A stretch of 64,000 bases of DNA from Dromaius novaehollandiae. Lineage: Eukaryota > Chordata > Aves > Casuariiformes > Dromaiidae. Shown here piece after piece: positions 3,001 to 63,140 of the stretch (positions are counted from its first letter, which is position 1; the number at the start of each line of letters is the position of its first letter). The stretch covers positions 36,087,981-36,151,980 of the forward strand of contig NC_088098.1 in the NCBI RefSeq assembly GCF_036370855.1, written 5' to 3'. The notes below the pieces were generated by a model, which saw only the letters and a program-made list of their open reading frames with translations, did no database searches and was not told where the DNA came from. A program made the translations under genes and the position numbers.

Positions 3001-3290
3001 AGCTATCAGCTCGCTTTCATGGCAAAAATGTTTAGAAACACTTCCTTCATTTAAAAAGTAAAAATACGTGGTTCCTGACTTGTCTTCCTTTCATGCCTTC
3101 TCAGGTTTTTAAATGCTTGGTCATTGTTTTATATAGGACCAACTAGTCATGGCAGGGTGAGGGGGGGAGAAATAAAAGTCTGCTGATCAGTTTGAGTTCA
3201 GATGTACTGAAAAAACTGCACAAACCTGTGCTGCAGAAGTATTGATTGCATTTTGAAGAGTTGAAATCCAGCTGTATATAAAATTGGGAA
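1..3290. other. AT-rich noncoding DNA upstream of the FRS2 CpG patch
   Basis: I recognise no coding exon here on either strand; the open frames are short, lack protein-like composition and are not bounded by convincing splice sites. A CT-then-T tract ending in TAG at about 1915-1943 looks like a splice acceptor, but I found no matching exon after it. The stretch is probably FRS2 upstream or first-intron sequence. I see no trace of YEATS4, the expected upstream neighbour. Confidence 0.5.
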
Positions 3291-3309
3291 TTAAAGGGCT
3301 GGGGGGGGA

Positions 3310-3620
3310 ATGCCGCTCCTGACTTTGAGGGGCGGGTGGTTGCCAGCCTGGGGCTGCCTGGCGGGCCCGTCTGGCGCGGCGGGTTGCTGCCGTTGCGGGC
3401 GCTGCGTGGGGAGGAGTGCTGCTGAGAGGGCAGGTTGTGGTGTGCCAGCCGAGCGCAGGGATTTGGTGGGATCATTCACCAGCCCTCCTCATCGCATGTT
3501 CAAAGCGGGCTCCGAGGGCGGTGTGCGCCAGCTACGCGCTTGTGCGCCGAAGCTGGCGTGCGGTTGCCATAATTTTGTTTTCATCGGAGCCAGAAGGCTT
3601 ACGGTTCGGCTTGGTTTTTG
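3310..3620. promoter_or_regulatory. CpG-rich patch, possible FRS2 promoter or first exon region
   Basis: In a region otherwise AT-rich and CpG-poor, about 300 bases carry more than twenty CpG dinucleotides along with GGGGCGGG-like GC boxes. This is the only CpG-island-like block before the FRS2 coding start, so it may be a promoter or 5' noncoding exon of FRS2. I could not fix a transcription start or a splice donor. GAG followed by gtaaaa near 3724 is one weak donor candidate. Short overlapping open frames across the patch look like GC-driven artefacts. Confidence 0.4.
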
Positions 3621-3902
3621 CCAAGTTTTTATTTTGGAAAGGGCTAAAGGGAGAAAAGCGGCATACATTTAATGCTGTATTTTAATCATAAGTCTGACAG
3701 CCTGCTCATTTAATGAAAATCTTGAGGTAAAACTCCAGCTGTTAGCATAAATGAAGTTACAGATGAGATTCTGCAACTTCACCTCTACAATTCATAGTTT
3801 GTTTTTCATAATTGCAGCCAGCGACACCAAACTATTTCTCAGCATGTCTAGTTTCTTCTTGGATCTCCTTCATTGTAGTTTTAACTCTGTTATGGTTTGT
3901 TA

Positions 3903-11224: not shown

Positions 11225-11910
11225 GGAGTGGCTTTATTGGATCAGGCTGAAGTTTCAATTGATCCAGTATCTTCTTCTGACAATAGCTGAGAGTAAATAT
11301 ATAGGGAAGGGAATAAGAAGGGAGAACGTTTTGTGACCTTTCTCTACTACCCTCCTAAATATCTGCAGCTTAGGGACTTTTTGAGCCATAAGTGTCATAC
11401 TTGAGTTTAAAAGCTCTTCCTGGTTATTTGTTTTTGAAACCTGCCAATTGGTAATGTCATCTGCTGCTCCCTCACGCTTGCATTTAGCACACATTTGTGC
11501 TTAATTAATCTTCTCCATGTCGCTTCCCCTGTGCTGTCCCTTCTTCCAGGCTGAGGAATCCTGGTTGCCATTCCTTGTATGGGAGCAATCCCATGCCTTT
11601 GATTATCCCTGTTAGTCTTAGCATCTCTTTAACTATATCCTTTTTGAGATGAGGAGTCATGATTGCATATATTACTTAATATCTAGGTGCACTGTGGGTT
11701 TATACAATAGGATGGTGTTTTTATTTTGGCTCTTCAGTTCTTTCCAAACGATGCTGTTTCATTTGCTTTTTGATAGCTGTTGAGCTAATGCATTGAACTA
11801 TGGTCATGACTGGTCTTTCCTAACAGGTAGAGCTCCCCTGCTACATGCATTGCATGGCATTTATCAGTACTGAATTTCTGCTGTCCTGTTGCTGAGTCAC
11901 TCCATAGCAA
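11225..11910 (-). mobile_element. Degraded ancient CR1/L3-type LINE fragment
   Basis: Read on the plus strand, this resembles the reverse complement of the 3' part of an old amniote CR1-type LINE. It starts with a block like 'ggatcaggctgaagtttc' and 'gatccagtatc' near 11239-11275, continues through 'ccaggctgaggaatcc' and 'ctatatcctttttgagatga' near 11545-11655, and ends with 'tactgaatttctgctgtcctgttgctgagtca' like text near 11870-11900. It is heavily diverged with no coding capacity. The assignment is by recall of the family consensus, not alignment. Confidence 0.65.
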
Positions 11911-12841
11911 GAGCCTTCTGCAACTGCTACCATGATGCCTAGGACCTGTGATAAGCTTGGGACTACATTAGTCTTGACACTACACAAAAAACAAGAGTGC
12001 TTTGGGTTCCAAAAATGTTTTAATCCAGGTGTAAGGCAAAGGACAGCAGATGAATACAGAGAATTGTGGGAGTCTTCCTGATAAATAGAATTGCAGTGGT
12101 CTCAGGTTTGCATAGACATCCTGAAAGGCTGATAAGAAAGAGGCTAATAACATAGTTTTTAAAGCATTTAGCCTTTTTCTTGAGTTTGAAAAGCAGTGTC
12201 AAAGAAAACATGAAGGGCTTGTTTGGCCATTTTACAAGCAGATAATGGAGGCTGCCAACTGTTAGCCTGGTGGAAGCAGGAGTTGACCTTCAGTGTTAAA
12301 TGTGAGAAAATGGAGTATGAGAATACTTAAGGAAGAATTTATAAAAGTGACAGCAAAAAATTTATGATTAATGTCATGGAGTAAAAATCCTGAGAGGGAT
12401 GCAAAGAGAAGGCGATGTGTTAGCTGTAGAAGTCAGCATTTGTTTATGTTCAATAGGATAAGCAAGAGGGACTTGAGCAGAGTTGCACATGTTCTTCTGT
12501 CTGCACTGGTTTGGTTCGGTGTATGCTAAGGATGACGGAAGCTGTGCATCTGTCACCAATATGGGCTAAAATGGTCAAGGAGTGAGTGGAGAATGGAGTC
12601 CCTCGTGTGACAGGCTGCTCTGCAAAAGTGGATACCAAATTACTTTCTTCCAAGACCAGGTGGGCACTAAAATGCTGGGGGACCTCTAAGAGATTAGTCT
12701 CTGTGTAAGACACCTCTTGAAGGTGCAGCCTAGCGGTGAAGACTTCACTAGACATAAAGCCTCCAAAAAAAAAGTTGTCTTTTAAAACTCCAATTACTAA
12801 ATTAAGATAAATTACATTTTTATGTACTTTTATAGTTTTAG

Positions 12842-12942
12842 ATCAAATGATTACTTCTGTGACAAGACAGCATGACACTTTGAAGTATGACGGAAGTCCT
12901 GATGCTGCAGCAGAGGCTGGGACTATTAATGGCCAAATCTAG
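12842..12942 (+). other. FRS2: Probable noncoding 5' UTR exon of FRS2
   Basis: A 101-base segment sits between an acceptor (pyrimidine-rich 'tttttatgtacttttatag' then 'ttttag') and a strong donor, gtgagt at 12943. The next downstream acceptor, at 15356-15357, opens the exon holding the FRS2 start codon, so splicing would give a 5' UTR of this exon plus the 26 bases before the ATG. The sequence looks more constrained than its surroundings. An alternative acceptor six bases upstream would start the exon at 12836. No transcript data are available here. Confidence 0.65.
12847..12942 (+). other. 31-codon upstream ORF in FRS2 5' leader
   Basis: An ATG five bases into the putative 5' exon opens a frame beginning MITSVTRQHDTLKYDGSPD and running 31 codons. 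Its TAG stop is exactly the last three bases of the exon, before gtgagt. The uORF therefore fills the exon and is closed before the junction with the coding exon. If transcribed, ribosomes would meet it before the FRS2 start, which usually lowers main-ORF translation. Function and conservation are inference. Confidence 0.6.
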
Positions 12943-15357
12943 GTGAGTGATTTTAGCTCTACCAGTTCCCTAGCTGTTTCACATGTGGGACTTTCTTTCC
13001 TCATAGCCTTGGTTCACATCTCTCCTTTGAAGCAGCTTTACAGTTCTTGATTTTCTGAAGTATTAATATTACAATATTTTGGAGACAAAATGACAAGCTC
13101 ATATCATTGATTGCATCCCATTTCTTTGTCTTTCGAGATGCGGTGGCTAGACTTCATACATCTTTGTGTACTACATCATTTCATTTGCAATTCTAGCAAT
13201 ATTCCAAATTATTTGCATTTTTTTGGTCCTTTGAGTTTGCTGACACCTCCCTCCAACAGATTTGATTGCTGTTATCTTTATGAGGCAAAGAAGTCATGAT
13301 AGTATCACAGTATGCAGCAGTCTAGTTCTATTTCCAGTTTGTCGAAAGGTTCCTGGTGGCCTAGGACTGGGCTTTATTAAGTACAAGCATTTCTGCTTGA
13401 AGACTATTAGAAGCATCTGTTTTGCAACTGTGTGCTGTATGGACCATGGCTTGAAAACCTTTGTTGCAAGTTTATATTACATTCATTGTTAATCTGCACT
13501 GTAGCTGTTTTCACACATTGCTCTTTTTAGCAATGTATTTCCAGAATAAATAGGGTAGCCTGAATTCACTAGCAAGACCAATATCTGAACCTTACTGTGA
13601 TGAGGCATTATGGGGTGCCAGGGCAGGAAATTAATCACAGAAGATGTTCTTAGCTATAACTCCTTTTCTAAACAAAACAGGCAGAAACATTCAGCAAAAA
13701 ATTGAGTTAAAATAATAATGGGATATATGTGTGAAGACTGTTGAAGGTAGCATGTAATTGAGAGACTGATTGCCCTGTTTAGGAAAATCCGGGGCTTCTC
13801 TTCACCATGTGAGAAACAGTTGTATGTAGGATAGCTTCTCTCTACAACAGTAGAAGGAAGCAAACAACCCCCCAGTTCTGTCTTGGGTCAAGAAATGGAC
13901 TCTGTCAAGTTAATGCATGTTTTCGTGTTATGGTCACTAGTGACATCAGAGAAATGCCATGATTTCGACTACATGGCTGGCACTCTGCCTCTTTGTTACT
14001 AGACTAATCCAAACCATTGTTGTCAGCCTTTCTGTTAAGTTGTCAGTTTGACCTCTGACAAGGTTTTGGTGGCCACTGAGAGGGTTATACAGTCTCTGGG
14101 TAGCTGTATCTATTTTGAGTCGCTTTTCTTGTCAAGAGGGAAGAGTTAGCTGCACTTCATCCTTTTCCTTGCCCCTCGTTTTTCAGCAGGCTGAAATGTT
14201 ACTCAAATGCTGTTGTTACCTGCTAATACAAATGCCTGGGTAGAAAGCAAGTCCTGGTTTTCTTAAGGTGGCATCTGATTTTCCCCTTAAGAAAAAGGAA
14301 AAGACTAGTTTTGTTTTGATTCTCCCTCACCCTCAATGTCATATCTCTTGTTGACTTAGTAACTCTCTTCCAAGATTTTGCCCCACTTTTCATTCGTGTA
14401 GTGAAAATTTTAGTTCTTTTCCAATATAAAGTCCATGTAAATGGGTAAGTTTTCTTTTCCTGTCTTTCTTATATTTAAGGTTGATCTATAGTGGGATGAT
14501 GGAGGAGAAGTGAACTATGAGTCTTTGTTCTATGGAAGTTTTACCATGCATACACAACTCTTTAAACATCAAGAATATCAAATACTTATTTTTGGTTTCC
14601 TTAGTTTGGCCATGCTGTTCTGTGTTAGTCAAATATTTTATTGTTTTATAGTAAATGGAGTAGACTGTATAACACAATTTAATCCAAAGGAAACTTAATA
14701 GAAATAAAAAAAAAAAGTTTTAAAATACTGGTTTTGTGTACATTGCTATATGGGAAGTATTTAAAAGTGGAAGCGCAAAACTCTGCTCCACCGCTCCAGG
14801 GCCTGGAATGCCTCCACCCTCTGTTGTAAGTTAGCCCTGGAGCTGTCTAAGCTAAGGCAGCTTTTCAAGATTGCCATGTGGGTTCCTTGTGTTGCCTGTG
14901 CCTAGTAACCTCCTATGACGGAGGGCTTTTATGGGAGTCATTAGAGCTGTCTTCAGCAGTGTCTAAGCTGGCGAGTGCTCATCTGGCTGGAACTGGAACC
15001 CAGGTAGCTGTCTTGTGTAAGGGCCCTGGTTTAGGGGATGAGAATCACACCCAAGAATCGTTTTTTCTCAAGTGTTACCATGGGAATTAAGGTGACAAGT
15101 CAAATGGGTTTGGTAGTAACCTCAAGTTTAAGTATTGGTAGGACTTTTAACAGCTTAGTACGGCCACTCCTCAAAGCTGAATCTAACTTAAAATTTTTTT
15201 AAAAAAATTTGTAATAGTTATGATTCTGCAAATTTGTCATGAAGAATTGTAATTTCAAAGAGTAATTTGTGTTGGGCTGTGCATTTGATGATACTCTCTT
15301 TTTTTTTCCTTCCCCCTGCAACTAAATTATCGCTCTTTCTTTTGTTTTTGCCTCTAG
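12943..15357 (+). other. FRS2 intron between 5' UTR exon and first coding exon
   Basis: Bounded by gtgagt on the left and a pyrimidine-rich tract ending 'tttgcctctag' on the right. I recognise no exon, RNA gene or clear mobile element inside it. Confidence 0.55.
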
Positions 15358-15449
15358 AGATCACATGGTCTTCTAAAGAAGTCATGGGTAGCTGCTGTAG
15401 CTGTCCAGATAAAGAAACTGTCCCAGATAACCATCGAAACAAGTTTAAG
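15358..15449 (+). CDS. FRS2: FRS2 first coding exon (leader plus residues 1-22)
   Basis: The acceptor is 'tttgcctctag' and the donor gtaagc follows codon AAG. The coding part, 15384-15449, encodes MGSCCSCPDKETVPDNHRNK then FK. Gly2 in MGSCCS is the known N-myristoylation site that anchors FRS2 to the plasma membrane. The start context is gtcATGg, with purine at -3 and G at +4. A minimal upstream ORF (15365-15376) precedes it. Confidence 0.96.
15365..15376 (+). other. Minimal three-codon upstream ORF before FRS2 ATG
   Basis: ATG GTC TTC TAA lies in the leader of the coding exon, ending seven bases before the FRS2 start codon. Its start context is cacATGg (C at -3, G at +4), weaker than that of the main start. 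Its effect on translation is inference. Confidence 0.7.
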
Positions 15450-18400
15450 GTAAGCGACTGACTTTGTATGCTGCAAATTATTTTGTTGCTTGTTTGCCTA
15501 TTAAGTTGGTGATTGAAAAAATGTAAGTGAAATTAGTGTTAGCAATACCTAACAGTTAAAAAGTTGGAGACTTACAGGTGTCTGTGTTACAGGCTTCTCT
15601 TGCCCCTTCTAGAATCTTTTCATATCATCAGTGACAGGATTTTTTTAAACAGGTTACATTAGTTACAACCGTTTTGATCTTCAGGGAGGAAAAAGAAGCC
15701 CTGTGTTTTCAGGCTTGCTCCATTTCAGTTGGTAGGGCCCAATTACGTGTTGTCACCTCTGAGAGGTGGTGGAATTCACAAGGGGAGTCACGAGCATGAT
15801 GGAAAAGCCGTTGCAGAAGTGTTACAGTGAACCTGGAAGTGGGGTCAGCAATTGAAAATTTTGAAATGCTGATTTTACCTTAAGATCACTATTGGTAATA
15901 GCATTTTGAGAACTTTTTTCTTTACTTGAAGAAGTTTGGTGTATGAATGTGCTTCTGTACAGTCTATCCTTGGAATTTACAAGCTTGTAAACGCTTGTTC
16001 ATGTGCTTAACATGAAGCTGCTGAAGTTGGTGACTTTAAGTAAACATACCTTTGCATAGTCACACAAGTCAGATTTGCTTCTATGCTCCAAACTGTCTCC
16101 ATGAATTGGCAAAGGAATGTTATGCTTCCATAGTGAAAATGACTCACCCCTTGCCTTAGGGGAATGCTCAATTGAGCTTTCAAACCAACCATGGGAATTT
16201 CTCAAAATGTTTAATACTATCAGTATAAATAGCTGAGGGATGAAATATTTTTCTGTTCTCTTGCTTTTTATGCATTTGACATCACTTTTTGCAACTAGTT
16301 CCTATTTTTCTTCTTGTAGAATTTCTTTGTTGTTTGTGCAGGTCTCTGATTTAGCAGCAGGAGGGAGAAGATGAAAGAATGTAATTTGTAAAATGAGGAA
16401 AACTGGTATAGGCTTCAGTGGCAGATGAAACTATTCCTAATTCTTTTTTAATTGATGAGATTTCAAGTTGAAAATGTCTCTTTAAGGAGTAAAGTTAATT
16501 AATACCATAAGGAAGATTTTTGTAGCCTTTCTTTTGAGTAAGGAACCCACTAAAAGCAGGATTGTGAGATAAAGTACCTATGGGGGAAAACATACATTGT
16601 CCAAATTCCATAAAGGATGCAAAGACCTCCAACTGGTGGAAGAGCAGAAGGGCAAAGAGTTTAAACTTCATATACATCATGCATTTTGCACAAAATAACC
16701 ATGAGGTATTTGAATTATTTGTTGACATTAAAAAGGCAGAAAAAAATCTAAAACAGCCTGATGAATTTGGTACAGTGCAAGGCTATGCAGGTGGTATGTG
16801 AGGGAAGTTTTATTTTGGAGCCTCTTCTCCTATTTCATTTGTTTACCCAACTGTAAGTGGGGTTATATGGCAAAGCAAATAACTTTTAAGAAACAGGTCT
16901 CTGAAAGAATATATTATTTGAGGTATATGTCTTCCATGTGGAAATGCTAGAATATGTACATAAAGTCAGTTTTAAAAATATTAATAAATTTATGAATCCT
17001 TTTTACTTTGAATTTCACCTCAGATTTTCAACAGTATTTTGTACTGCTTTTAAATATGTATTATTTTAGTTCTGGGTTGGGAGGAGCAGAGGAGAAGGTT
17101 TGGTGAGTTTTTTAAGCTTTTACCCCATGAGTTTTAACTCATAGAGTAGATGGAGTGCATCAATGAAACATTAAGATTATATTAGCAATATTGGTGCTCA
17201 AAAGAATGCTTATCTAATGCTATTTAACTTCTGTTTTATAGGTTATTAACGTGGATGATGATGGTAACGAACTGGGTTCTGGCATAATGGAACTTACCGA
17301 TACAGAACTAATTTTATACACCCGTAAAAGGGATTCTGTAAAATGGCACTACCTCTGTCTCCGTCGCTATGGCTACGACTCAAATCTTTTCTCTTTTGAA
17401 AGTGGTCGAAGGTGTCAAACCGGACAAGGTATATAGAATTTCTGTATACAAGGCATTTTAAAAAAATGCCCTAATGTTGGAGGACAAATTAAAAAAAGTA
17501 TACTTGCCTTTCCTGTGGCAAGGGTTTAAAAGATGTAGTTTCGTATGAATGTAGTTTCTGGAAAAAAGTAAGTTACCGTATGAGGGGAAGGTGGTGTCCT
17601 GGTGAGTGGCTGGCATTAGGAGTAGGGTCCAAGAGCAGATTGGTCTTACGATAAAATGAAGATTTGAATGACTTACTGTTTCTGGCACTGTAGGTCTGGA
17701 GCACTTCATGCTTGTATATAGTGGTACTTCTGGTCAACTTTGAAGGTAGTTTTGACAGGGAAAATCTCCTAGGCTTTCAGGGAAGGGCGGTGGTAGGGGC
17801 AATGTAACGTGGGAGTGGGATGTAGCCTTGGGAGTGTGGAGGGATCTTCTCAAAAAACTAAGAATAGAGAATTCTTTGAATTCTAAGAGACGGAGCACTG
17901 GTATGACCTGGATATTCCTACCCTGTTATTGTCTTCAGTAACCTTTGTGTGTCATCCTTTTCCTAAAGCAAATACTGTTTGCATTTGTATCAGCAACATC
18001 ATACTTAAATTTTGACATATTTTGTAGGGAATGAACTCCAGCTATGCTCAGTTATTTTCTGTGTGGTGTTGATCAGAAAAAGATGGTTACCTTTCCAGTT
18101 CCCAGGTCATGGCCGGTCTTGGCCAAGACTGGCTCCTAGTGAAAAGATGTAGTTGTTCTTAATCCCTCTTCACTGAAACAGTCTGTGAGGCCATAGCTGT
18201 ATTAGTTGAGGTTTGAGCAAAGTACTTGCTGCCCTCATTTTGCATCTTCCTGTCACAGTGCAGCTGTGTATAGTAGGAATTCTTATGTATTGATGCTTTG
18301 TGAAATTAAGTTGTATTTTTAGTTTGTTAGTATTTATCAACTGCAAAATGTTTGTTAAAAATACTAGTAAATGCTAACAATGTATTTTAGCTTCACTGTA

Positions 18401-21400
18401 AAAAATTGAGAGCGTGAAAGAACTTGGCTATAAACACACCTGGCTATCTTCACTGTCCAAGGTGAGGTTAGGGCAGACAGTTATTTTACAATCAGCGTTT
18501 AAAAGGCATTCTTGGTTCAGCTTCTTTGTTCGTAGTGTTCCTCACATTTTAGTGGGATGGCTGCAGTGAGAAATAGAGATCTGTTCAAATGTTATAGTAT
18601 ACTTAATTAAATTTTCAGATTTTTAAAGAGAAGATCATGAACTCTGTTTTAAAGAAAATGTACTTTAATTGATTTTTCAAGTTTAATTTGTGTTTCTTTT
18701 AAATGTGTAAAATAGATACTAATGAAATTCAACTGAAAATACTATTTTGGGTGTTCTTTCTCTTGGCCTGTTAGCAAGCGTGCAGAATTTTCCATTGTAT
18801 CTAACTCACTTCTCTGCCTCCCTTGTATTTTTTTTAATAGAGAAGATTAAGCAGGCTGTGTGAGCAGCAACCCTTTCCTCCCTCTTTTGTTTCTTGCTTT
18901 CCTTATGTAATATTAAGTACTGTGAATATCGAGAAAAGAAAAAAGAAATCTGGCAGAAAACGTTGTCTCTGCTGCCATTTTGCAATGGAGCATTGTTCCT
19001 GAGACCTACGTTAGCTTTTGTGGCCACAGTTGCAAAACTTCATCTTTAGTTGGTGAGACAACTGAGCAGTTTTTTATTTGAGAATACACTGAGTATCACC
19101 CAGCAACTTTTACTGATTTACTTTAGTCAATATTCTTGTTTGTGTTTCATGTTTTCTCTCAAATTTAATATATGGAGATATCAAAATGCACTGATGGCAC
19201 AATATTTACATTGTGCTAGGTTTTGAAATCCTTAAAGACATATTTTGGGAGCATAGATAACAGATAATTCAACACAGAGAACCCGGAGGAGTTGCTGTGT
19301 TGCCGCATTTTCTAAGCGACAGATCTTACTGATTTTAATGTCAGTGTAATTAAGAAAAAAAAAAAAGATTTCATCAAGCTATTTTTGCTTATGCTCTCAC
19401 TGCTAATTCAGTTAACCTCATATTTTAACTAATTAGCAATCTGGAAGCACCACTCTTTCTTAAATGTATGTATTTATTTATTTTTAACAAAGTGGGCAAA
19501 GCCAGCTGAATTTCTCAGAAACAAACTGGGAGCTTTTTAAAGCTTGTAAACCTGATTTTTTTTTTTTTTTTTTGTTGGTGGTGGTGTGGTTATTTTGTCC
19601 ATTAAAGTTTAAATATCCAGTGTGAATTTTGGACACGCAGGAAGAATTAGAACTAGAGTATTACTACATTCAGCTGGATCATGGGTTGGAGGAAAGGAGT
19701 AAAAGCTCTACAGCTGCCGCATTGCGAGTGTAAAGCTTACTCGCTGTACCAGCTGGATGTTCATGGCTGGGCATCAGCCCTCTTGCCCACTTGGTATATT
19801 CCCAACTAGGTTTTTGTGAAATCTTGCCATGTGGAGCATTTCTGGTAGTTCTGATCTCTCCCATCCTTAAAAAAAAATGCTGGCCATTACTGTCTATTAA
19901 CAAAATTAACTTACATAAGTAGTTATAGAGGTAGGTAGTCTTTAGTAAAGAGTGTTTTAAGATTGTAATACACATTTTAAAAAAAACGAGCACCTGCACC
20001 CACGTTTAACAAGCATGTCAACTTTAACTTAATGCTTTCAATGGAAGAATAATCCAAAGCTGCGACTTTGCTGGTGAGGGTAAGTTGGGGCGCTCCCTGC
20101 TGTTCAAAGGCAAAGTGGCACAATACACAAGCGAAATACACGGTATTGCTGCTGACTTTGTGTTCTGTGTCTATCCTTTAGCCTAAAACAATTGGTTTGT
20201 TACTGTCTGTTTCACACAGTTTGTCTTACTAGCTTTTCATTTTAATCTTCTTACAGAAACTAAACTTTTACCCAGTGTTTAAATCATTCTTTCCTGATGT
20301 GCAGGTATCTTATTTTTATGGTAATTTAATAGAAATCTGATTTAAAAATATGATCTTGTAGCACCAAAGTTGTTTCATTTAGTGTTTTTTTTTTCTTTTT
20401 TTTATTTAGTAGGCCTCCTTTTTATCAACTCTTCAAAAAAAATCTTGCCTTTTTTTCTTTTACCCCCTCATTTAGCACTCAAATAAGGCTTGCTTTATAA
20501 CTGAATCAATTTTTCTGTTCCAACTTAACCTCTGGTGCATGGGAAATTTATTCTTCTATCAGCTAAACACTTGAAAGGGTCTCACTGTATTTTTGTGTGT
20601 TTTGGTGCAAAAGAAATTTGTTAACGTTTTTTCCTTCTTTAACAGGTATTCATTATGTGGATTCCGGTTCTTTTCTTTAAAAATTAGTTGCATAGTGAGG
20701 CACTTTTCTTAAAAAGGGTTTTGATTTTTCTTTTTTTCTGGTGTATTTATAGGAATCTTTGCCTTTAAATGTGCCCGTGCAGAAGAGCTATTTAATATGT
20801 TGCAAGAGATAATGCAGAATAATAGCATAAATGTGGTAGAAGAACCAGTAGTAGAAAGGAATAATCATCAAACTGAGTTGGAAGCTCCAAGAACCCCTCG
20901 AACACCTACCAGTAAGTATGGTTATACTGTCAAATGGCATACCTGAATATAATGTGGTAGTTAGCTTTAAATTAGATTTTTTTGAATTACTTAGTGCAAA
21001 TTAAATGCTATTTTCAGCTGGCAGGTTAAGTGCCAGTAATGCATTCTCTTGAGATACTTTCTGAGGATTCTTTTTCCAGAATCTGAAATCCGGGGAGCAA
21101 AACTGCTGTAGTCAAGTTCTTCAGCTTTAAAAACTAAGCTTTGGGACCTTAGTTTTTGCATAAGAACACTGCTTAAGTGTATACTTACTCAATTGCTTTA
21201 TAAAATATCACCATACTTTTCTTTTATCATTATTCAGAAATGTTAATGCTAGGCAGTGCTCCAATCTTTTTTTTTTTTTTAGGAAAGAAGTGTTGGTCCT
21301 ACCACATCTACAGTGGGTTTGGGATCTTTCTTTTGCTATGCATAAATGGATAGGTAGAACGAGGTCCTTCACCTCCTGGGTGATTTCAGTTAATCCTAGG

Positions 21401-22692
21401 GATGTGGCTTGATATTTGACAATAGGAATTCCAGGTCATTGGTGACTTCAGGGAAATAGAAGTTTCAGGAAATAAGTTTCTATTTTATGGAAACATGTTA
21501 GTGGTGGGAAAAAGTTGGATGAGGAGTTTATTGGGAGAACTGTGGTTTGTAACACATGTAGATTTCAGTGGTTGCTTCAGACATGTTTCCCAGTAAATAC
21601 TGGGATGTTCTACTCTGAAGTTTGCTTTTGCCTTTCCTTCCTTCCAGCAAAGTTGAACCTTGTGACTATTTAATACTGTTTTACATATTTAGATTTCTGT
21701 TTTGAAAATTGAGGATGATGATATAAAGCATCTTACTCATATACAATAAAATGTTTCTATTTTAATATGGTTTTGCTTTGGTTTCCAATTGAATCAGCTC
21801 CTGGGTTCAATGCACAAAGCCTACCTAATGGCTATCCCAGATATCCATCTTTTGGAGATGCTTCATCACATCCTTCCAGTAGGCATCCTTCTGTTGGAAG
21901 TGCACGCCTCCCCTCTGTCGGTGAAGAATCAACACATCCTTTGCTTGTAGCAGAGGAACAAGTGAGTATTTTTCTTTTTCCTTTCATATAATTCGTGTTC
22001 AACATCAGTTCACATTTTTATGCTGGTTCTGTATGCTTGTGTTTTCATTTGTGCTTTTCAGTATCGCGTGTAATGTATTTTTTCTGTGTGTTAATTACCT
22101 CAGAAAAGTGTTTGTATTGCCGCTTTAAAATTAGACAGTGTAGGATAACTTGCTGGGGAAGGGTAACTATTTTAAGTTGTTCTTTATATATAAAATAAAG
22201 ATAAATTATATATAAAATACATATTTATATATTTATGTATATGCTTTTTATTTCAATAACTGTATTTTAAACACACAAACTGTATTTTATGATTAAAGAT
22301 CCTAGTCAAAAAGCTGCTTTGCAAATAAGCTTTCTGTTCGTAGAATCATAGAATAATTTAGGTTGGAAGGGACTTCTAGAGCTGCTTGGCAAAGCGGAAC
22401 CAAACTCAGGTCCAATTTTGGAGTTAGAGCAGGCTGCTCAGAGCCTTGTCCAATCGAGCTTTGAATACTCCAAGCAGGGAGATTTCACAAAGTCTCTGGG
22501 TGTGTGCTGCAGTGTTTGACCACCCTTGTCTGTAAAACTTTTTTTCTCTACTAATAATTTTTTTTCCTGTTTCAACTCGTGTACATTGCCCCTTATCCTT
22601 TTGCTGGACAACTCCAAAAGGGTCTGGCTCTGTCTTCTCTTTAACCATCTATTAAGTAGTCGAAAGCAGCAATTAAATTGCTCCTTAGCTGC

Positions 22693-22727
<35 letters not shown>

Positions 22728-23768
22728 GGGGAGTAAGAAGGAATGAAATTAAAAAAAGAAAAGAAAGAAGTGCAACTAGTATTTGAACTTCCTTTTTTTC
22801 TTTTCCCCCTCTTTTAGGTGCACACTTATGTCAACACTACTGGGGTACAAGAGGAAAGAAAAAATCGATCAAGTGTGCATGCGCCACTGGAATCAAAGCT
22901 TTCAAACATTGAAACAAGTAAAGTGAAAGAAGATCAGATGTGTACTGATGACAGAGATGCTCAGGTTCTCCTAGAGCCTGAAGGAGTCAAGTTTGTTTTG
23001 GGACCAACACCTGTTCAAAGGCAGTTAATGGAAAGAGAGAAACTGGAGCAACTTGGGAGAGACCAAGTTAGCGGCAGCAGCACAAACAACACTGAATGGG
23101 ACACTGGGTACGACAGTGATGAACGTAGAGAAACGCCATCTGGTAATAAACTGGTATATGAAAATATAAATAGGTTATCAATCCCTAGTGCCTCAGGGGT
23201 CAGGAGAGGTCGTTTGACATCAACCAGTACCTCAGATACCCAGAACATTAACAACTCTGCTCAAAGGAGAACTGCGTTGTTGAACTATGAGAACTTGCCA
23301 TCGTTGCCTCCTGTTTGGGAAGCCCGCAAGCTGAGTAGAGATGAAGATGACACTTTAGGACCAAAGACCCCATCTCTGAATGGCTACCACAATAACCTAG
23401 ATCCAATGCATAATTATGTCAATACGGAGAATGTAACAGTACCAGCAAGTGCTCATAAAGTAGAATTTACGCGACGTCGGGACTGTACCCCAACGGTCTT
23501 CAACTTTGACATTAGGCGTCCAAGTTTAGAACACAGACAGCTCAACTATATACAGGTTGACTTGGAAGGTGGTAGTGACTCCGACAACCCGCAGACTCCA
23601 AAAACCCCCACCACTCCACTTCCACAAACTCCAACCAGGCGCACAGAGCTGTATGCTGTGATAGACATTGAAAGAACTGCTGCTATGTCAAGCTTGCAAA
23701 AAGCACTGCCCCGAGATGATGGTACTTCTAGGAAAACTAGACATAACAGTACTGACCTGCCTATGTGA
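15384..23768 (+). CDS. FRS2: FRS2, fibroblast growth factor receptor substrate 2 (five coding exons)
   Basis: FRS2 is a membrane-anchored docking adaptor that couples FGF and neurotrophin receptors to RAS-MAPK and PI3K signalling. Coding exons 15384-15449, 17242-17428, 20753-20911, 21798-21961 and 22818-23768 total 1527 bases and join in phase into 508 residues, the usual length. Visible are the MGSCCS myristoylation signal, an IRS-type PTB domain (about residues 13-115) that binds the receptor, and a disordered tail with the phosphotyrosine sites. The GRB2-type sites are Y196 (YVN), Y306 (YENI), Y349 (NYENL) and Y392 (NYVNTEN); the SHP2-type sites are Y436 (NYIQVDL) and Y471 (LYAVIDI). TP-rich stretches near residues 130 and 450 match known ERK feedback sites. 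The stop is TGA 23766-23768. All introns are GT-AG. FRS3, the paralogue, is excluded by length and near identity to FRS2. Confidence 0.97.
15450..17241 (+). other. FRS2 intron after coding exon 1
   Basis: GT-AG intron (gtaagc ... ttttatag). I recognise nothing functional inside; the short open frames near 16000-16800 are not protein-like. Confidence 0.8.
17242..17428 (+). CDS. FRS2: FRS2 coding exon 2 (residues 23-85, PTB core)
   Basis: Begins VINVDDDGNELGSGIMELTD and ends at a split glycine codon (G then gtatat). It encodes most of the PTB beta-sandwich, including the RKRDSVKWHYLCLRRYGYDS region that forms the peptide- and receptor-binding face. Confidence 0.97.
17429..20752 (+). other. FRS2 intron after coding exon 2
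   Basis: GT-AG intron (gtatat ... tatttatag). It holds AT-rich sequence with a poly(T) run at about 19558-19573 and no recognisable exon or repeat family. Confidence 0.8.
20753..20911 (+). CDS. FRS2: FRS2 coding exon 3 (residues 85-138)
   Basis: Encodes the C-terminal helix of the PTB domain (IFAFKCARAEELFNMLQEIM) and the start of the linker, including the RTPRTPT cluster of proline-directed phosphorylation sites. It starts and ends in phase 1; the donor is gtaagt. Confidence 0.97.
20912..21797 (+). other. FRS2 intron after coding exon 3
   Basis: GT-AG intron (gtaagt ... gaatcag), 886 bases. I see no additional feature in it. Confidence 0.85.
21798..21961 (+). CDS. FRS2: FRS2 coding exon 4 (residues 138-192)
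   Basis: Encodes the serine- and proline-rich linker PGFNAQSLPNGYPRYPSF followed by HPSSRHPSVGSARLPSV. It ends in phase 0 at EEQ before gtgagt. The first phosphotyrosine site, Y196, falls four residues into the next exon. Confidence 0.96.
22341..22695 (-). mobile_element. CR1 LINE 3' fragment, antisense
   Basis: Starts with 'tagaatcatagaat', the reverse complement of the ATTCTATGATTCTA tail typical of CR1, followed by 'ggttggaagggacttctaga'. Further CR1-like text includes 'gctgctcagagccttgtcc', 'ctttgaatactccaagcagg' and 'tttctctactaataat'. The LINE's sense strand is therefore minus. It is 5'-truncated, as most CR1 copies are, and diverged. CR1 is the dominant LINE of birds and other sauropsids, which is the main mobile-element evidence for the host group. 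Confidence 0.88.
22696..22725. repeat. A30 homopolymer run
   Basis: Thirty consecutive A next to the truncated 5' side of the CR1 fragment, 92 bases before the last FRS2 exon. CR1 does not normally end in poly(A) and this is not its 3' end, so the run is probably independent. Confidence 0.9.
22818..23768 (+). CDS. FRS2: FRS2 last coding exon (residues 193-508)
   Basis: A single 951-base exon begins VHTYVNTTGVQEERKN and ends RKTRHNSTDLPM. It carries all six phosphotyrosine docking sites (Y196, Y306, Y349, Y392 for GRB2; Y436, Y471 for SHP2). Counting from V193 places Y196 and Y306 exactly at their mammalian numbers, so no insertion or deletion precedes them. A PQTPKTPTTPLPQTPTRR block is the C-terminal cluster of proline-directed sites. 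Confidence 0.98.
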   Translation: MHTYVNTTGVQEERKNRSSVHAPLESKLSNIETSKVKEDQMCTDDRDAQVLLEPEGVKFVLGPTPVQRQLMEREKLEQLGRDQVSGSSTNNTEWDTGYDSDERRETPSGNKLVYENINRLSIPSASGVRRGRLTSTSTSDTQNINNSAQRRTALLNYENLPSLPPVWEARKLSRDEDDTLGPKTPSLNGYHNNLDPMHNYVNTENVTVPASAHKVEFTRRRDCTPTVFNFDIRRPSLEHRQLNYIQVDLEGGSDSDNPQTPKTPTTPLPQTPTRRTELYAVIDIERTAAMSSLQKALPRDDGTSRKTRHNSTDLPM

Positions 23769-34167: not shown

Positions 34168-37100
34168 GTGGGTCCCGGGGCGGCAGGGCAGCTCCGCAGC
34201 CGCTCGCGCGGGGGCGGGGCGGTCCCGTCTCCCTCCCCGGCCGCGCTCTGTCCGGGGGGCGGTTGCGGCGCTCGCGCGGGGGTGGCCGTTAGGCCTGGAA
34301 AGTTCTGGAGCGCGCGCGGAGCGTCCGTTGGGCCGTGGCCGGGCTCGCTGGGGCCCGCGGCGAAGAGGCCCCCGCAGCATGGCCGCCTCGGAGGCGAGCG
34401 GGAGGCCGCTTATTTACTCCCCGCTCCTCCTGAAAGACCGGGTGAGGCAGCGCCGTGTGTCCAAGCGTGAGAGCGTGCGTAAAGGCCCCCAACGTGCTGA
34501 GGGCTGCTATCACGCTGTGCGGAGGAGTCTCCTACCGCACCCTTGACAGCCGTTTTCTTATTTATTTATATTTGTTAAGATGGTGATGTAACGCACGTGA
34601 AGCCTGTAGCAAGAATCGTGTGCTGATCGTACAGCAAAGTAAAAGGTCACTGTATTAGGAGGACTGGGTGTTCACTTTTTTGGGGTTTCCTAACATGCAA
34701 AGATCTTATGGACCTAAATAAGTACTTTTTAGAGGCATGTATTCATTACTGCTTTAATATAACTTGCATGGAGATGAAAAAATAATCAGGTTTTGACACA
34801 AATATTAATGCACTGATGTGCTCAGTAACCAGATTTCTTCGGTTCCACTGATTTTACCTTTGCTTTGTCTGGCTCTGATGTTGGGCCACACAGAATAGCA
34901 ACACAGAGATTGCTGTAAGGTAAGATACTGGTAAAAGCCTTTCAGGCTTGTAGATTCATTATCGTGTAGCATCTGCAGCAGAGAACTTAGGAGAGCTCTC
35001 AGGTAGCGAGATTTCACCAGTGACTTGCTACCTGAGCAATGTAGGATGGGTGCTGCCAGGAAAGTCCTTTATTGTATTGTAGGTCCTTCAGCAGAATTAA
35101 AGATCTATTTAGATCCTCTATTGCTGTCACAGTCCTGATCTTGCTTTTTCTACTTTAAGAGATTGCAAGATAGATTTTTAGAAAGAGTCAAGGCCAATTT
35201 ATATTGAGTATACTTTTTCTCAAAACCAAATGGAGCGGTGCAGAAATAAATCATTCGAATAATAAAAATATTTTCTAGATTGTTAATGCTTATGATGCAT
35301 TTTAAAAATGCATTGTTTTATTAAAGCTAAAAAAAGTATTCTGATGTTAACTCTTTTGTTTTAGGCATCCATTTCCCTTGCTCCTGTGAATATTTTCAAG
35401 GCAGGTGCAGATGAAGAAAAGGCAGAAACTGCTCGGTTGGTAAGTTTAATTCTCTAGGAAGCAGGCAACACTTTGGGTAATTAAGCTTGAATTTTTCTGC
35501 TATTAAAAGTGCTTTCAGTTTACAGTGATGTGGAACTTCATCTGTCTGCTGTTAGCCTTGTTACATGTCTGTGAACAGGAGACAGGAGAAGTAGGAGGAT
35601 TGTTTTGTTTATACTGATAATTAGGAAAACTTGTAAGGAAACAAAGTAAACTATACCTTGGATCAGAAGCTTGACATTCATTGGAAGGCTTTTCTTTGGG
35701 TCATGAGCCAGGCTTTTATGATATCTATGAAGATAATTATGTTTGGTCTAGTTATCAAAATGTAGCAGTTAAAAAACTTGGAACCATACTGTGCTGAAGG
35801 GAGTGTGGCTGTGGAAGGGTTGGCTTAAGATGTCCCCTTGGAAGTGATAATTAGTCTAGCATTTACGTCTTGTCTTAAAGTAGAAATAAATCTTGTGCTA
35901 AGGTATATTTGTTTCCATTTCAGTCATCCTTTGTTGGTGCTATTGCTATCGGTGACCTGGTCAAGAGCACTCTGGGACCTAAAGGCATGGTAAGATAATT
36001 GCAAGTTCTCAGATGTCATACCTGCAAATATAGTATTAATAGTTACAGGATGTTTTGAAGCACTAATCTAAATCTTGCATCTTCTAGGACAAGATTCTTT
36101 TAAGTACTGGAAGAGATAGCACAGTAACAGTGACCAATGATGGTGCAACCATCCTGAAAGCTATTGGAGTTGACAACCCAGCTGCAAAGGTCTTGGTTGG
36201 TGAGTTTCTAACTGCTTGTCGTTGCTGTATTTTGGATTTCTCCATTTGCAATTTTATTTTGTAGTTGTCCTTAGAATAGGATTCTTCAAATAGCGTGAAA
36301 AATTGAAGGGAGAGGGAGAATAATTCCTGAAGTAAGGATACCAAAATGTTGCAAGAGTTTCAGAATTCTGTAAGAATAAAATTGAGGTATATGCTGCTCT
36401 TGCAAAACTGTTCTGATACAGTGACATTGTTTTCCCTCAACCCTCATTTGTCTCAGGAGTCAAAAGGGACAAAGGCAGCTCTATGCCCTGCGTTCTTCAC
36501 TAGGAAGACAGGAGCAAGAATGTACTGGGGTGCATAGGTTCCCTCTGGTTCTTCCCAGTTTAAATCTCTTTTTATTACCTAATCTATGCTGTTCTCTGGA
36601 CAGAGTTTACCCTTGTGATCAGCTCCCTTAATGTGCAAACAGTCAAGTTCTAGTGATGAGCAGCACCCTGAGCAGTTTGCTCTCAAGCTTCTTACTGATT
36701 TTGTGTTTGCTGAGTTCTTGTTTGTCAATAGTTTATGTGACATATGTGGTTATTGTATTCTGTGATCCTGTTTGTATGCCTCAGAGCTTCTATTTGGCCT
36801 TAGTTCCTTTGGATGACCTTCCTTAGGAATGGGGAGAGACTAAATTTTGATTGATGGCAGGCTAGAACTGATGCCTATGTTGTAAATGAAGAGCAGTAAT
36901 TTGAAGGGTGCTGAATTTGATTTGCATTTCTAGTTGTTGTGTGGCTATAACTTGATAGCATCTTTAAACTAGCTGGAACAAGTTTCTTTTTTCTTCTCTA
37001 AGGTGATGTGAGGTAAAAGTATTTATACTTAAAGCTGGTCCTTTTGAGCATGGTATTTTGAATCAAAACATGAATGGAGTAATTTTTTTCTTTTCTTTTT

Positions 37101-37426
37101 TTTTTAAGATATGTCGAAGGTTCAAGATGATGAGGTTGGTGATGGAACTACATCTGTTACTGTGTTGGCAGCTGAATTACTGAGGGTGATGTATTACAAT
37201 TTTTCAGATGTTTCTATGTTTGGCAATGTAGTCCTGAGATATCAGTAAGAGGCAATACCATTAATTGAGGTTTATGAAAACGATTCTCAGAACGTAGCAA
37301 GACTTTTTACAGTGCCATTCAAATTGATAGGAAAAAAACCCTTAGATATTGCCTTTTTTTTGTATTTTAAATATATATAAATATATATAAATTAAATTAA
37401 ATATATAAAATATATTTTAAATATAA

Positions 37427-37459
<33 letters not shown>

Positions 37460-40400
37460 AAATATTCCTTGCTTTATTTTTTATAACTTCACAACTGATT
37501 TTAACGTAGTACCTTTTTGAAAATTATTTTCTCTTACTTCATTATGGAAGTGAAATGCAAAAGTATCACTCTGTCACAGCTCACTTTTTGGATTTTGCAC
37601 TGAGCAGAATGCAGCACTGCTTAATTTGACGTTCAGGCCTATTAAATCCTTTTCCACAAAGTTAAGGAGGAAAAAAATGTACGTTAAATGCTGTTCCTGT
37701 GTGCATGAGACATGAATTTATGTTGTTTATTCAAACAGTGCATACTGAACACTGCCAAACTCTGAATGTGAAAATACTAGGAAAGAGACTTTGAAAGTGA
37801 GGAATTCTTGTTAACATAGCTCTGACAGTAAATTTAATGGCCACACTTCCTGGATTGAGATCAAGAGCATCTAAGAAGTGATTGCTCAACTTGATGAATT
37901 CCTTGCAGAAAGGGAGTTTGAAGATTTTTTTCTAACTACCCCTTGAATTCCAGGTATAAGTGAACAGGAAACTGCTCTCAAACATGAAGCGAAAGATAAC
38001 TATTTTTAAATACATGTCTGTTTGCTATTCATATGACAGTTAAGGTTTTTATTAATCAAAATTTCTAGAAGATATTCTAAGGGCAGGTCATATTTGCCTA
38101 GATTGGAAAAATGGACAATATGGTGACTAGATTATTCTCCCTTCCTTTTAGCTGTTTACTTTAATTGGATTGTTTTAACTGTCTGGCTTCTGCTTACATT
38201 CAGAATTTTCTGATTACTCTGAAGTGTCTTTCCTAATTACTCTAAATACATGATGGAAATAAAATAATTGTTAATTTTATTAAAATAGGAGGCAGAATCA
38301 CTGATTTCGAAGAAGATTCATCCTCAGACCATTATTGCAGGTTGGAGAGCAGCCACAAAAGCTTCAAGAGAGGCTCTTTTGAAAGCTGCTGTGGATCATG
38401 GGTTAGTAATGTACATTTGCAATAGCTCTCCCTGTAAACTGTTCAAGATTAAAACATTGGAGAGAATCATATAACATTGGGAAATTCCTGGGGTTGCTTT
38501 GAATAGTGTAAAGGCTGAATATATGATGTGAAAAGTTAAAGAAAAAATAGCCTTTTTTCTTAGATGGACTACAGAAGCTTTGTGAAATTATTTAAAATCA
38601 CTTCCGATGTACAGAAACATATAAACAATGACTTGCTCCCTAGAATAATAATCTAAGCTGTTAATTTGTATTTCATACTCTGATTTTAAATGTGCTTATT
38701 TTCTTTATGCAGATGCCTTGAAAGCTCTTTAAAGCTGAGTGCAAAGGTTTTATCCTTAAAACAGTAAAACGACTTTCTTACTAAAATTACCCATCACAGG
38801 TACCAATTTGGTAGTCCATTGCAAATGGTAGAAGGTATTTTGAAGTGAGAGATTTCTGAAAGTCTTGGCTAGAAATTGGTGGTGCTTCTACACTATAGTA
38901 TGTATTTGCAAGAACCTGGGAAGAAGCAGTTCCTGATATTTGACTTAGTGAACTGTCCAATTTCTTGTTCTACCCATGAGCAGGATAGATTTAAATGTGC
39001 TACCACATTTCATAGTCAGAGGTCTCAGTGAGGAGACTTCTTGACATACAAATTGATGATAGAATTTATCATGGTATCTAACCAAACTGGCAAAAATCAG
39101 GTAAATTTTCCTAAGTCATTGCAAGACTAAATTGTTATTAATTGTTGTTAATTGTCATTGTTTTAATGACATATTATTTTGACAAAAACAGGTTAAAATA
39201 TAAAACAAATTTCAGTTCCATCTGTGACTTCTCCGGCTTCAAAATGAGTATGGATGTTACTTTTGCATAGTATTTTGAAATATGTATGTTAAACTAGTCA
39301 GTGTAAATAACTTTGACTCATATGTATGAGAAATGCAGGTGTCAAAATGTCATCCATTAAGTATATACATATGCATATATATGACTTTAAACTAGCAGGA
39401 AAATAAACCTCTTTTCACAAGGAACTTCTAAGTGAACTCATATCTCAAATGGTAGCCTATGTTCTGAGACACTGGGGGATTTCCCTGTATCATTCCTCAA
39501 AATGGAATATGATACAGATAGATGTAGGTTAGAAAAAGCAGAGGGAGACTTCACAGTGATAGATTAATGATAGCTAAGGCTTTAAGAGTTTCCAATTTAA
39601 TTGTACTAACTTTATTTTAGTGATGATGAAGTGAAATTCCGTGAAGATTTGATGAACATTGCGGGCACTACTCTTTCGTCAAAATTACTTACTCATCATA
39701 AAGATCACTTTGTCAAGCTAGCTGTAGAAGCTGTTCTTAGATTGAAGGGTTCTGGCAATTTGGAGGCTATCCATGTTATCAAGAAACTTGGTGGAAGTTT
39801 GGCTGATTCTTACTTAGATGAAGGTAAGTCTTTTTATGTTGGCTAATAGTGCACTTTAAAAATGAAACAGTTACACATCTGTATACAAATTTTTTCAGGA
39901 AACTGCTACGTTATTATTAAATTGAATAATCAATGTGAGTTTTTGTAATTTAGATGAACTATTCATTTTAATTTGAAGTCTTACAAGATCTTTCTACTAC
40001 TACAGGCTTTTTACTTGACAAGAAGATTGGTGTAAATCAACCAAAAAGAATTGAAAATGCAAAGATTCTTATTGCAAATACTGGTATGGATACAGATAAG
40101 ATTAAGGTATGTGACGGAACTGCTGTTTTGAAACAACTTTTTGTAAAAGGAATTTAATTTTTAGACTAAACTCTTTGTTTTCTTCAATTTAGATTTTTGG
40201 CTCTCGGGTTAGAGTGGACTCTACAGCAAAGGTAGCAGAAATAGAACAGGCAGAAAAAGAAAAAATGAAGGAGAAGGTAGAGCGTATTCTTAAGCATGGA
40301 ATAAACTGCTTTATTAACAGGTATGCATTTCCTTGGAAAAGGGGTAGAGTTTATAATGCAGTTACAAAGTAGCAAGATTTTAATACTGCCTGAGTGTGAA

Positions 40401-43400
40401 GACCATCTTTTTTGCCTGTATGGGTAAAATGGTGTCTTATGTAACACTTAATAATTGATTCACTTCAGTGAGGCCAGTATTTCTTTCTGTGCTTCCCTAA
40501 ACCCCCCTCCCCCCCTTTTTTTGAGGTTTTAGTTAGGGGTCCATGTTTAACCCAGCTGAAAGCTCAGGGTAAAGGAAGCAATGTCACCATACTTTTATGC
40601 TAAATTATTTGTTCAGTTTATATATACTTATTCAGTTATAAATACCAGCAGCATTACCCATACCCCCCTTCTAGGGGGGAAATTGGTACTGAAAGAGTCC
40701 GTCCTGCTGAATGCATTTAGTTCAGATCGAACCAGCTATGTTTTATCTTACATTAAAATGCTGGTGCTGAAGTACTTTCCAAATTCAAGAGGGTTTCAGA
40801 GGCCTCTGTGCTTCCTGCCGTGAACCTTCTACAGACTACTTTGGAAGTATGGAAGATAACCATTTTTAATTTAATGATTCTTTCAGCTCACAAGAAATGT
40901 CATAATGCAAGTGATCTGTTTTTAGCAGGAGTATACTTCTCTGTTAAAATAGAGGTGTGAGAAATATTTCTGCCTTTCAGTAATTCGCATCTGAATGAAA
41001 ACTGCCATACATACGGGCAGCTTTGATACTTGGTGTTTCAAGTGTGTAGTCTACCTGGTGTAATCTACTAGAAAGCTGATCAGCTAGCACCACACCAAAG
41101 GATAGGAATTGCAAGAGTAGCATTGCTTTCCACAGTAGCAAAGATTTACTTTTTCAGGACATAGTGCATCTTATAACCCATCTTCAAAATCTGTGTTAAA
41201 TATTTGTGAGAACTACTGCATACTTCTCAATCTTACAATCCCTCCACCTACGTCATGTTTCACATACGCTGCCTTCAAGTGTAGGTAAAACCAGTATCTG
41301 TCCAGTGGACATGGTGCAAATACAAAGGAGTCAGTAGTCCTGTCATTAAACAGATGTAAGAATCCTTTGAGATTGGCAAAAAAAATTGTGACTCCCTCCC
41401 TGTCATCTAGTGTGCTTGTAACACAGGAGGTTGTCCTACGGAAAGTCAAGTAGCAGCCAGCTACTGTAGAGAGGCTGGTGGCAATCCAATTAGGTTGACT
41501 GACTTTCAGATTTATTCATTTGTTTATGGATAAATTGACCTCTGCTTCTAGGCATACTCTAGATCCACCTCTGCATCTGATACTGTAAGTGTTAGCCAGT
41601 TAAATACCATTGATGAGATGCTTGATGGCAGTCAAGCCTATATGGATCCATATTAGGAAGAATCTTCACTGTACTTACCCAGCAATCCCAGTTGTCTCCT
41701 TTGAAGATAGATCGAAAGCATCTTTTTTTTGAAATCTCTCTCTCCCATCTCCCACCAAGTCTTCACGACACTCTCAATCTCTAATTTGGAAAGGAAAAAA
41801 TAATTTGGTGTAACCCTTCTAAATGGCTATTGACTGTGCTTTGAATGGCTACTTTATGCTAAAGGCAGTGGAATACATATTAATAAAGATATACTTTTAT
41901 ATGTAAATATAAACAGAGAAGCATATACTCTCTGTGATCTGCTGTCTGTATATATTCCAAGACTGGAGTTTGTTGTTCCTGTAGTCTGTACTGTTTGGAT
42001 TTCGTACTGGTGAAGGAATTACAGATGTTCCTTCTCACATTGTAGTGCACCTGGTTAGAATAGGCAGCTAAGTGCCCACTAGGCACTTAAGATCAAAGGA
42101 CTTGGATTTTAAAGCTTGTGGGTCTGTGTGTAGAGGCAGAGTGTCTGCAGGGGCAGTGTATTTCAAAGAACTATAGCTGTGGGGTTTTTTTTGTTTTTGT
42201 TTTTTAAGTTTAATGTGTTTTCCTGTCACTGCTGTTTGTTTGTTTCTGTGTAGAGTGACTTTTTCTGTGCGGCAGGTGCCTCGCATGTTGACTGCTTCTG
42301 TCACTTCCAGAAGTCTGTCTGTGTATATGTTGCTGAGAATCAAGTGTCCTTTGTTATGGTGATATTTTAAAAGGTTTGTTCTTTGGATAACATTAATATG
42401 TGCCTGTGTTTTAATTGTAGACAGCTGATTTACAACTACCCCGAACAGCTCTTTGGGGCCGCTGGTGTTATGGCTATTGAACATGCAGACTTTGCTGGTG
42501 TAGAACGTCTGGCTCTTGTTACAGGTACGGAGAATATGCTCTAGTATGAAATTAGAGAAATCATATTATTTGTTCGGGTAAATATTAATGCTCGATTGAC
42601 TAGTTTGTACTTTCTTTTAACTGTTAAGCAAATCTGTGAATTTAAAAAGTGCTTAGAATGGGCTTTGCTTTGCAGAACTTTGAAGTACAAACACAGAGGA
42701 CCCTATGAAGTTGACCAAGAGTAACTGAAATTATTTTATTGATTAACAGCTGTTATATAAATTTCAGTACTTCTTCAGCAGCAATTAGGTCATTTTCTGT
42801 CTTCAGTATTATACTTTACATTTGAAACGTTCATTTTGATTCTGAATCGTTCCTGCTTACTGATTCAAAAATACTTTTTCCTCGCATCTGTGAATAAAGG
42901 ATCTTAATGCTGTGAAATACAATTTCACATTTAGTGTGCCAGTTAGTGTTTTTCTTCAATATTTTAAAAATACTTGTTTTCAGATAAGTGCCTGCTTGAT
43001 AAACTACCAAAATATTTGCTTTCTAGGGGATAAGATGAAACTTAGGAAATGTAAGCTGATACATCTACTGGTTCATTAATACCATTTTGTTATACATGGC
43101 AGTCGTTTGATTGTAACAATAGAGAAGACTAAAGAGTCATTCTACGTTAAAAATTTGAGGTAGACTTCAAATAACATGGGCGATTGTAGGGTATGTTTAG
43201 TAGTGGTCAGTGTTAACGTGGTTCTAGTAGCTAGTGAAAATGAAACATCTTCTGGAAGGCTGAAACATCTTCTGGAAGGCTGCAAGTGATTCTAGATGCC
43301 TAAGTTACTTAGCAGTAGTTAACTGGAACATAATCAAAAACCGATTACTAATGTAATTATGAGAATGGAAAATTTGCTTTGCAGGGAGAAAGAAGGTGAT

Positions 43401-46400: not shown

Positions 46401-47537
46401 ATTTATCCCCTTAGATCCCGACAATCATAGCTGATAATGCTGGCTATGACAGTGCAGATTTGGTTGCTCAGCTCAGAGCTGCTCACAGTGAAGGGAAAAC
46501 GACTTACGGACTTGGTAAGTAGCTTGATATTACTTCTATTGGATTGATATTCGTTGCGGATTAGGCTCCTTTGTCACCTCTGTTTGTCATTGATGCATTC
46601 AGCTGGAAGAACTGAATACATTAATGCGTCAGTGCAGGCTTGCTTCTGTGTTCTTTTAAAGTCTGTGTTATGCAGCGGCACTCCCATTACTCTGTGAATC
46701 TGTTTTAATTCATTTTGTTTTCTGAAAAATAGAAATCTCTGCATATAAGTTAAATTTCTTCCTTAATACAGTTTTGGCCTTATATCAGTGCTGTGATTAA
46801 ATTACTACTCTGGTGGACAAGACGAAATAATGTCAGAAAGTGATGGTAAATGGAAGATGAACTATTTGTATGAACTGGAAATTTTTGTTGCTGTAGTCAG
46901 TAACTTTGTAATTTATTGCTCAAAACAGCAGTAAATGCTTGAAAGGAACAATTTTAATAAAGAATTTACTACTTCAAGTTCATATGTTACGCTAGGCCTA
47001 AAGAGCTTAAATGGTAGATGCGTTTCATATTGAACAGAAGTTTCAGGATGTATTGAGTTAGTTGCTTTTACTTGCTTGTGTAACAATGTGGTGATGCAGA
47101 CATTTATGTTAGTTCTGTTTGCTTTGCACAGAATGTAACCATCCAAACTGTTATATTCCTTTATTGGTTTTGAAAAGGATGATTTCCACCTATGAAACCA
47201 ATTGCTTTAATATCTTTGAGTCTAGTTATATGAAGTTCAAAAAGAAAGGCATTGATTGAAAAAATAACCTTCAGAAAAAGTTGGGGGGAGTGGCTATACC
47301 TAAAGAAATAGTGCTGAGAGTCCTGTTGGGATCTTGTCTCTTCTTCCTAGTGGTATTAAGTTTTCAACATTATATCTTTATATGTAATTGCAGCAAGATA
47401 AGCTTAAATCATTAACCTTCAGGTGAAAAGTATTTAGACTTTGTTTAATTTTCCCCCTACTATCAATATGGTTCATTTGAGCAGGAAAGCAATCATACTG
47501 TCAATTTTTTTTAAAAACACACACAAAAAGCCCATAA

Positions 47538-47582
<45 letters not shown>

Positions 47583-52363: not shown

Positions 52364-52700
52364 CCTGGAAGTTTCTTTGTTCAGAAATCCCCGGGACTGC
52401 GAGGGACAGGGACCCTCCCTGGTTGTCTCCGGTTGTGCACTGGTCTGCTGGTGCCTCCTTCCTCCCAATATAAAGCTCTGTTTACATGGCACCAGCCATT
52501 AATCTCAAGGGCTCTGAAATGTTTCTGATAACCGAATGAGTGTTTGGTGATGGGGATTACGGATATCATGAGTTAGAGTACAGGTCTCCCTCTCTTGCTC
52601 ACACGCAGTCCCACTCCCTCCCCTTCCTCCCCCTCTGCTCACCCAGAAAACCATCCCTCTTCCTGCATGCTAGAGATGTTCTCAAATTTTGCCCCACGTA
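52364..52700 (-). promoter_or_regulatory. LRRC10 5' leader and probable proximal promoter
   Basis: On the minus strand a TATA-like TTTATATT (plus about 52466-52473) lies roughly 100 bases before the ATG, and TTATCA (plus TGATAA at 52526-52531) is a GATA-type site. LRRC10 is known to be driven by cardiac factors. Assignment here is by motif and position only. Confidence 0.3.

Positions 52701-57005: not shown

Positions 57006-63140
<6,135 letters not shown>

Follow-up and report, generated by a model that had tools for sequence, protein, structure and literature searches.

The FRS2 Locus and Its Neighbours

As a docking protein for FGF receptors, FRS2 relays FGF receptor signals to RAS-MAPK. 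In the window, i.e., the whole stretch of 64,000 nucleotides of Dromaius novaehollandiae DNA that was analysed, the main FRS2 start codon (ATG 15384, with G at both -3 and +4) lies in an exon at 15358..15449 (+), the coding part of which (MGSCCSCPDKETVPDNHRNKFK; 15384..15449, +) is followed by a coding exon carrying the first part of the PTB domain (17242..17428, +), both having matches in PDB and Pfam. For these two exons together, the best PDB match is FRS2 (E 5.9e-49), above FRS3 (E 3.5e-37), and the Pfam match is to the IRS-type PTB domain. Two further coding pieces, namely the remainder of the PTB domain (20755..20913, +) and the piece at 21794..21961 (+), were located with a human FRS2 query, and the stretch at 22818..23768 (+), reaching to the stop codon, reads as the final coding exon. 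From these matches, the coding sequence downstream of the leader exon predicted below is identified as that of FRS2. When the FRS2 start was used in protein scans of prokaryote, virus, phage and plasmid collections, 7 viral and 84 genome stretches fitted the pattern, none of which was confirmed.

Downstream of FRS2 and on the same strand, CCT2 was recovered in 14 pieces (35365-47731) with a CCT2 query. A minus-strand ORF (51527-52498) resembles LRRC10, past which plus-strand ORF pieces (60810-63269) resemble a cathepsin E- or pepsin-type aspartic protease. The vertebrate gene order is FRS2-CCT2-LRRC10, and the order in the window agrees with it. Upstream of FRS2, a CpG-island-like stretch (3201..3700), 9 kb ahead of the predicted leader exon, is a possible location of the FRS2 promoter and first exon; no first exon matching this stretch was established.

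A Predicted Leader Exon Filled by a Short uORF

The predicted 5' leader exon (12842..12942, +) is 101 nt long and sits 2.4 kb upstream of the exon bearing the FRS2 start codon. By sequence inspection, it is directly preceded by AG (12840-12841) and directly followed by gtgagt. The ORF that nearly fills it, hereafter uORF1 (12847..12942, +), consists of 31 codons plus a TAG and encodes MITSVTRQHDTLKYDGSPDAAAEAGTINGQI; its start context is weak, with C at -3 and A at +4. The stop (12940-12942) forms the final three bases of the exon, so that the arrangement claimed in the sequence-only reading, i.e., ATG 12847, an open frame and a TAG on the last base before gtgagt, is indeed present. The remaining two forward frames of the exon contain three and four stops. 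Both the ATG and the in-frame stop of uORF1 are located upstream of the main FRS2 start codon, as befits a uORF of FRS2. No exons were located upstream of 12842, and additional upstream AUGs may thus exist. None of the repeats detected in 11500-14500 covers the exon, and a search of the window that tolerated up to three mismatches gave a single occurrence of a 20-mer taken from it. A viral contig sharing one 20-mer with the exon was set aside, the exon not being continued there (251 bases, compared by eye). Of note, the two stretches 12842-12851 (ATCAAATGAT) and 15360-15369 (ATCACATGGT) are nearly identical exon openings, each with an AUG after five bases, a likeness that is probably due to chance.

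Splice signals were scored with a simple matrix of textbook frequencies. The donor after 12942 is strong, as only 9 of the 3,941 plus-strand GTs, the donor itself included, score at least as high, and the acceptor before 12842 is ordinary to weak, with 879 of 4,480 AGs scoring as well or better. For the next exon, the acceptor at 15358 given by the sequence-only reading is supported by its score (37 of 4,480 AGs as good or better). It belongs to a tandem acceptor, AGAG (15356..15359, +), the alternative AG of which gives an exon start two bases further on, at 15360, with a lower score (257/4,480); both exon starts are conceivable.

The fit of an ORF from start to exon edge had been held to be improbable by chance. 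Under a first-order Markov model built from the window, an exon of 101 nt that ends in AG has a probability of 0.0034 of carrying an ATG no later than its twelfth base, with the frame then staying open up to a stop that closes on the final base. Among 534 pseudo-exons (GTRAG donors, 349 on the plus and 185 on the minus strand, 50-300 nt, filtered acceptors), the fit was found only at the predicted exon, in two rows that correspond to the same place with two acceptors. As for 101-mers ending at AG|GT, 86 of 463 terminate in TAG and a single one, the exon itself, shows the full fit. The preference of donors for a preceding AG accounts in part for a TAG in this position; the fit, while notable, is not decisive and constitutes weaker evidence than originally proposed.

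An RNA element is not favoured, because the predicted folding of the exon gains nothing over shuffled versions (z 0.63), 145 of 200 of which equal or surpass it, and no Rfam family attains its gathering score within the window.

Coding-Like Signal in the uORF1 Frame

Composition-neutral position weights, trained on coding exons, were applied to the 30 codons following the ATG. In frame, uORF1 scores 7.59 bits with weights from FRS2, 9.77 with those from CCT2 and 9.35 with both, and the two other frames range from -6.68 to -21.12 bits across the same sets of weights. With known exons and a number of GC-rich stretches masked, 291 further ORFs of 25-60 codons that begin with ATG were scored on the two strands, none of which matches uORF1, and the FRS2-weighted score is reached by 4 of 2,000 open dinucleotide shuffles. 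When no ATG was demanded, only 3 of 18,280 overlapping stop-free 30-codon windows, taken on both strands outside masked stretches, reached uORF1; all three are located at uORF1 itself (top cluster 12841, plus strand), with the next-best cluster at 8.18 vs 9.27 there.

The signal depends on the model and the training set. With models that are not composition-neutral and are trained on FRS2, background ORFs are as good in 24 of 308 cases (codon model) and 1 of 308 (position model). With LRRC10 added to the training, these counts become 47/308 and 26/308, respectively, and with LRRC10 as the only training gene, 79/308 and 108/308 background ORFs are as good, so that no coding-like signal is seen. 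True coding sequence is itself not reliably high-scoring: 43% of FRS2 slices exceed the background 95th percentile with CCT2 weights, and 72% score above 0 with the weights of FRS2 itself. As uORF1 outscores 97% of 520 coding windows, a few codons, e.g., the alanine run, may supply part of its score. Altogether, the composition of the uORF1 frame is coding-like, in the sense of single-sequence composition and not of conservation; this phase signal is new, independent of the start-to-edge fit and stronger than it.

Other Upstream AUGs and the Tandem Acceptor

The two modelled exons contain six upstream AUGs, namely 12847, 12872, 12887, 12902, 12929, and 15365. Both 12872 and 12887 have A at -3; the former encodes MTL and then a stop, and the latter opens a second upstream frame (MTEVLMLQQRLGLLMAKS...; 12887..12942, +). 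AUG 15365, in the exon with the FRS2 start, opens a 3-codon uORF, MVF. The choice at the tandem acceptor alters the frame relation of the AUGs of the leader exon to FRS2. With the acceptor at 15358, the 12887 frame ends before the FRS2 AUG at a TAA common to MVF; with 15360, it crosses the FRS2 AUG and continues into the following coding exon. The earlier statement that the uORF is independent of downstream splicing is hence correct for uORF1 but does not extend to the whole exon, where the 12887 frame depends on the downstream acceptor.

An N-terminal extension of FRS2 through the predicted exon was rejected because of stops in all three frames. The acceptor at 15360 would place uORF1 and FRS2 in a common frame that is free of stops from the uORF1 TAG onwards up to the FRS2 ATG, so that FRS2 could be extended solely by stop readthrough.

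Repression and NMD as the Favoured Explanation

On balance, we lean towards considering the predicted exon as an FRS2 leader exon with a real, peptide-constrained uORF that would be translated, repressive and NMD-promoting. Given a protein-like frame, uORF1 probably holds FRS2 output down. In the proposed course of events, scanning ribosomes initiating at AUG 12847 would synthesise the 31-residue peptide and terminate at the last base of the exon, after which most of them would be expected to fail reinitiation at FRS2. With the predicted splicing, the FRS2 AUG lies 24-26 nt and the next junction 90-92 nt from the uORF1 stop, and further coding exons follow. A stop more than 50 nt upstream of a junction can trigger NMD (PMC3738444), and with the predicted splicing the uORF1 stop exceeds this distance. 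NMD is thus permitted, and we infer from this geometry that termination at uORF1 would mark the mRNA for UPF1-dependent decay. Owing to the weak context of AUG 12847, many ribosomes would presumably scan past it, and the remaining upstream AUGs would add further repression of FRS2.

FRS2 is a known NMD target, both stabilised in Calu-6 cells by the NMD inhibitor Compound C (PMC6173407) and counted as one of eight endogenous NMD targets upregulated in HeLa cells after UPF1 depletion (PMC3694864); in the excerpts available from these two papers, the NMD sensitivity of FRS2 is attributed to no uORF or other named feature. Regarding repression, a uORF of nine codons, separated from the main start by a spacer of 16 nt, decreased the main product 5-10-fold in HeLa reporters, and longer uORFs did so even more (PMC10187673). 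In the same study, a longer spacer had little effect for a small uORF in HeLa cells, so that the gap of 24-26 nt may count for less here than uORF length, and reinitiation, which favours small uORFs, was not a robust protection from NMD in these reporters (PMC10187673). Other reports bear on decay itself: repression by uORFs often occurs without mRNA decrease (PMC3091714), AUG-proximal stops can escape NMD, and plant uORFs of less than 35 codons, to be compared with the 31 codons of uORF1, are NMD-resistant (PMC3738444).

Alternative Explanations

A genuine FRS2 leader exon encoding a neutral peptide, where uORF1 would be a start-stop element acting solely through its upstream AUGs being there, is possible, if rather unlikely. 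Such an exon would be in keeping with the six upstream AUGs of the two modelled exons, two of which (12872 and 12887) have A at -3, with a start-to-edge fit whose p of 0.0034 per exon is not vanishing given the many patterns that could have been noticed, with the lack of any Pfam match for the uORF1 peptide, and with a coding signal that weakens under codon models and LRRC10 training. It does not sit well, however, with a composition-neutral signal that is limited to the uORF1 frame and that no other unmasked part of the window equals.

A microprotein gene, in which the 31-residue peptide is functional in the cell and the FRS2 mRNA serves as a bicistronic carrier, appears improbable. While the protein-like composition of the uORF1 frame would suit it, the start context of AUG 12847 is weak, the peptide matches no Pfam family, and the sole two PDB matches of the 31-residue peptide are designed propellers (E 0.00028 and 1.1) aligned through their YDGSPD repeat. 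The kelch-like identity suggested by this search was rejected as chance, because the score sums YDGSPD stretches that recur in the match and are individually not significant (i-Evalue >1,000 in every case).

Finally, it is highly improbable that 12842-12942 lies outside the FRS2 mRNA, whether as an ORF arisen by chance amid decoy splice signals or as an exon of some other transcript. The ordinary acceptor, the lack of located upstream exons and a GC content (0.436) resembling that of the downstream flank (0.44) would fit such a reading. They are opposed by the strong donor (9/3,941), a GC content far above that of the upstream flank (0.23), the coding-like signal in the uORF1 frame, and the right strand and position shortly before the exon with the FRS2 start.

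Relation to Known uORFs and Significance

In sum, uORF1 is well formed and protein-like, and the exon that carries it is predicted to belong to the FRS2 leader. For the favoured explanation of a repressive, NMD-promoting uORF, the closest class is that of NMD-promoting uORFs in mammalian mRNAs, among which IFRD1, CFTR, and SMG5 are listed in PMC3738444. Like these, uORF1 has, with the predicted splicing, a stop well upstream of later junctions, and its host gene, FRS2, likewise counts among the NMD targets studied in human cells. It differs from them in that its link to decay is one that we infer, and in that uORF1 fills one exon, the last codon of which is its stop. Conserved peptide uORFs of vertebrates include those of SLC6A8, FAM13B, and MKKS (PMC4568590), which uORF1 resembles in being short and having signs of peptide constraint; those uORFs rest, however, on multi-species alignments, and uORF1 on the composition of a single sequence. 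Searched as a degenerate pattern, the uORF1 peptide gave 0 matches in the prokaryote, virus, phage and plasmid collections. In the main text of PMC4568590, FRS2 is not named. No FRS2 uORF appeared among the titles and abstract openings listed, and one may already have been published.

It would be a far-reaching, and at present doubtful, proposal that the locus combines a peptide-constrained FRS2 uORF exon, the edge stop of which couples translation to NMD, with a two-base tandem acceptor whose use decides if the second upstream frame stops early or runs across the FRS2 start and blocks it. If this proposal were true, splice choice in the leader would set the dose of FGF signalling, and this dose would respond to NMD-inhibiting stress. 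Should the peptide be conserved, a microprotein or a peptide-dependent repressor would be added to a much-studied pathway. A uORF stop ahead of several junctions would give a direct reason for FRS2 being an NMD target and would tie the strength of FGF signalling to translation and NMD activity.
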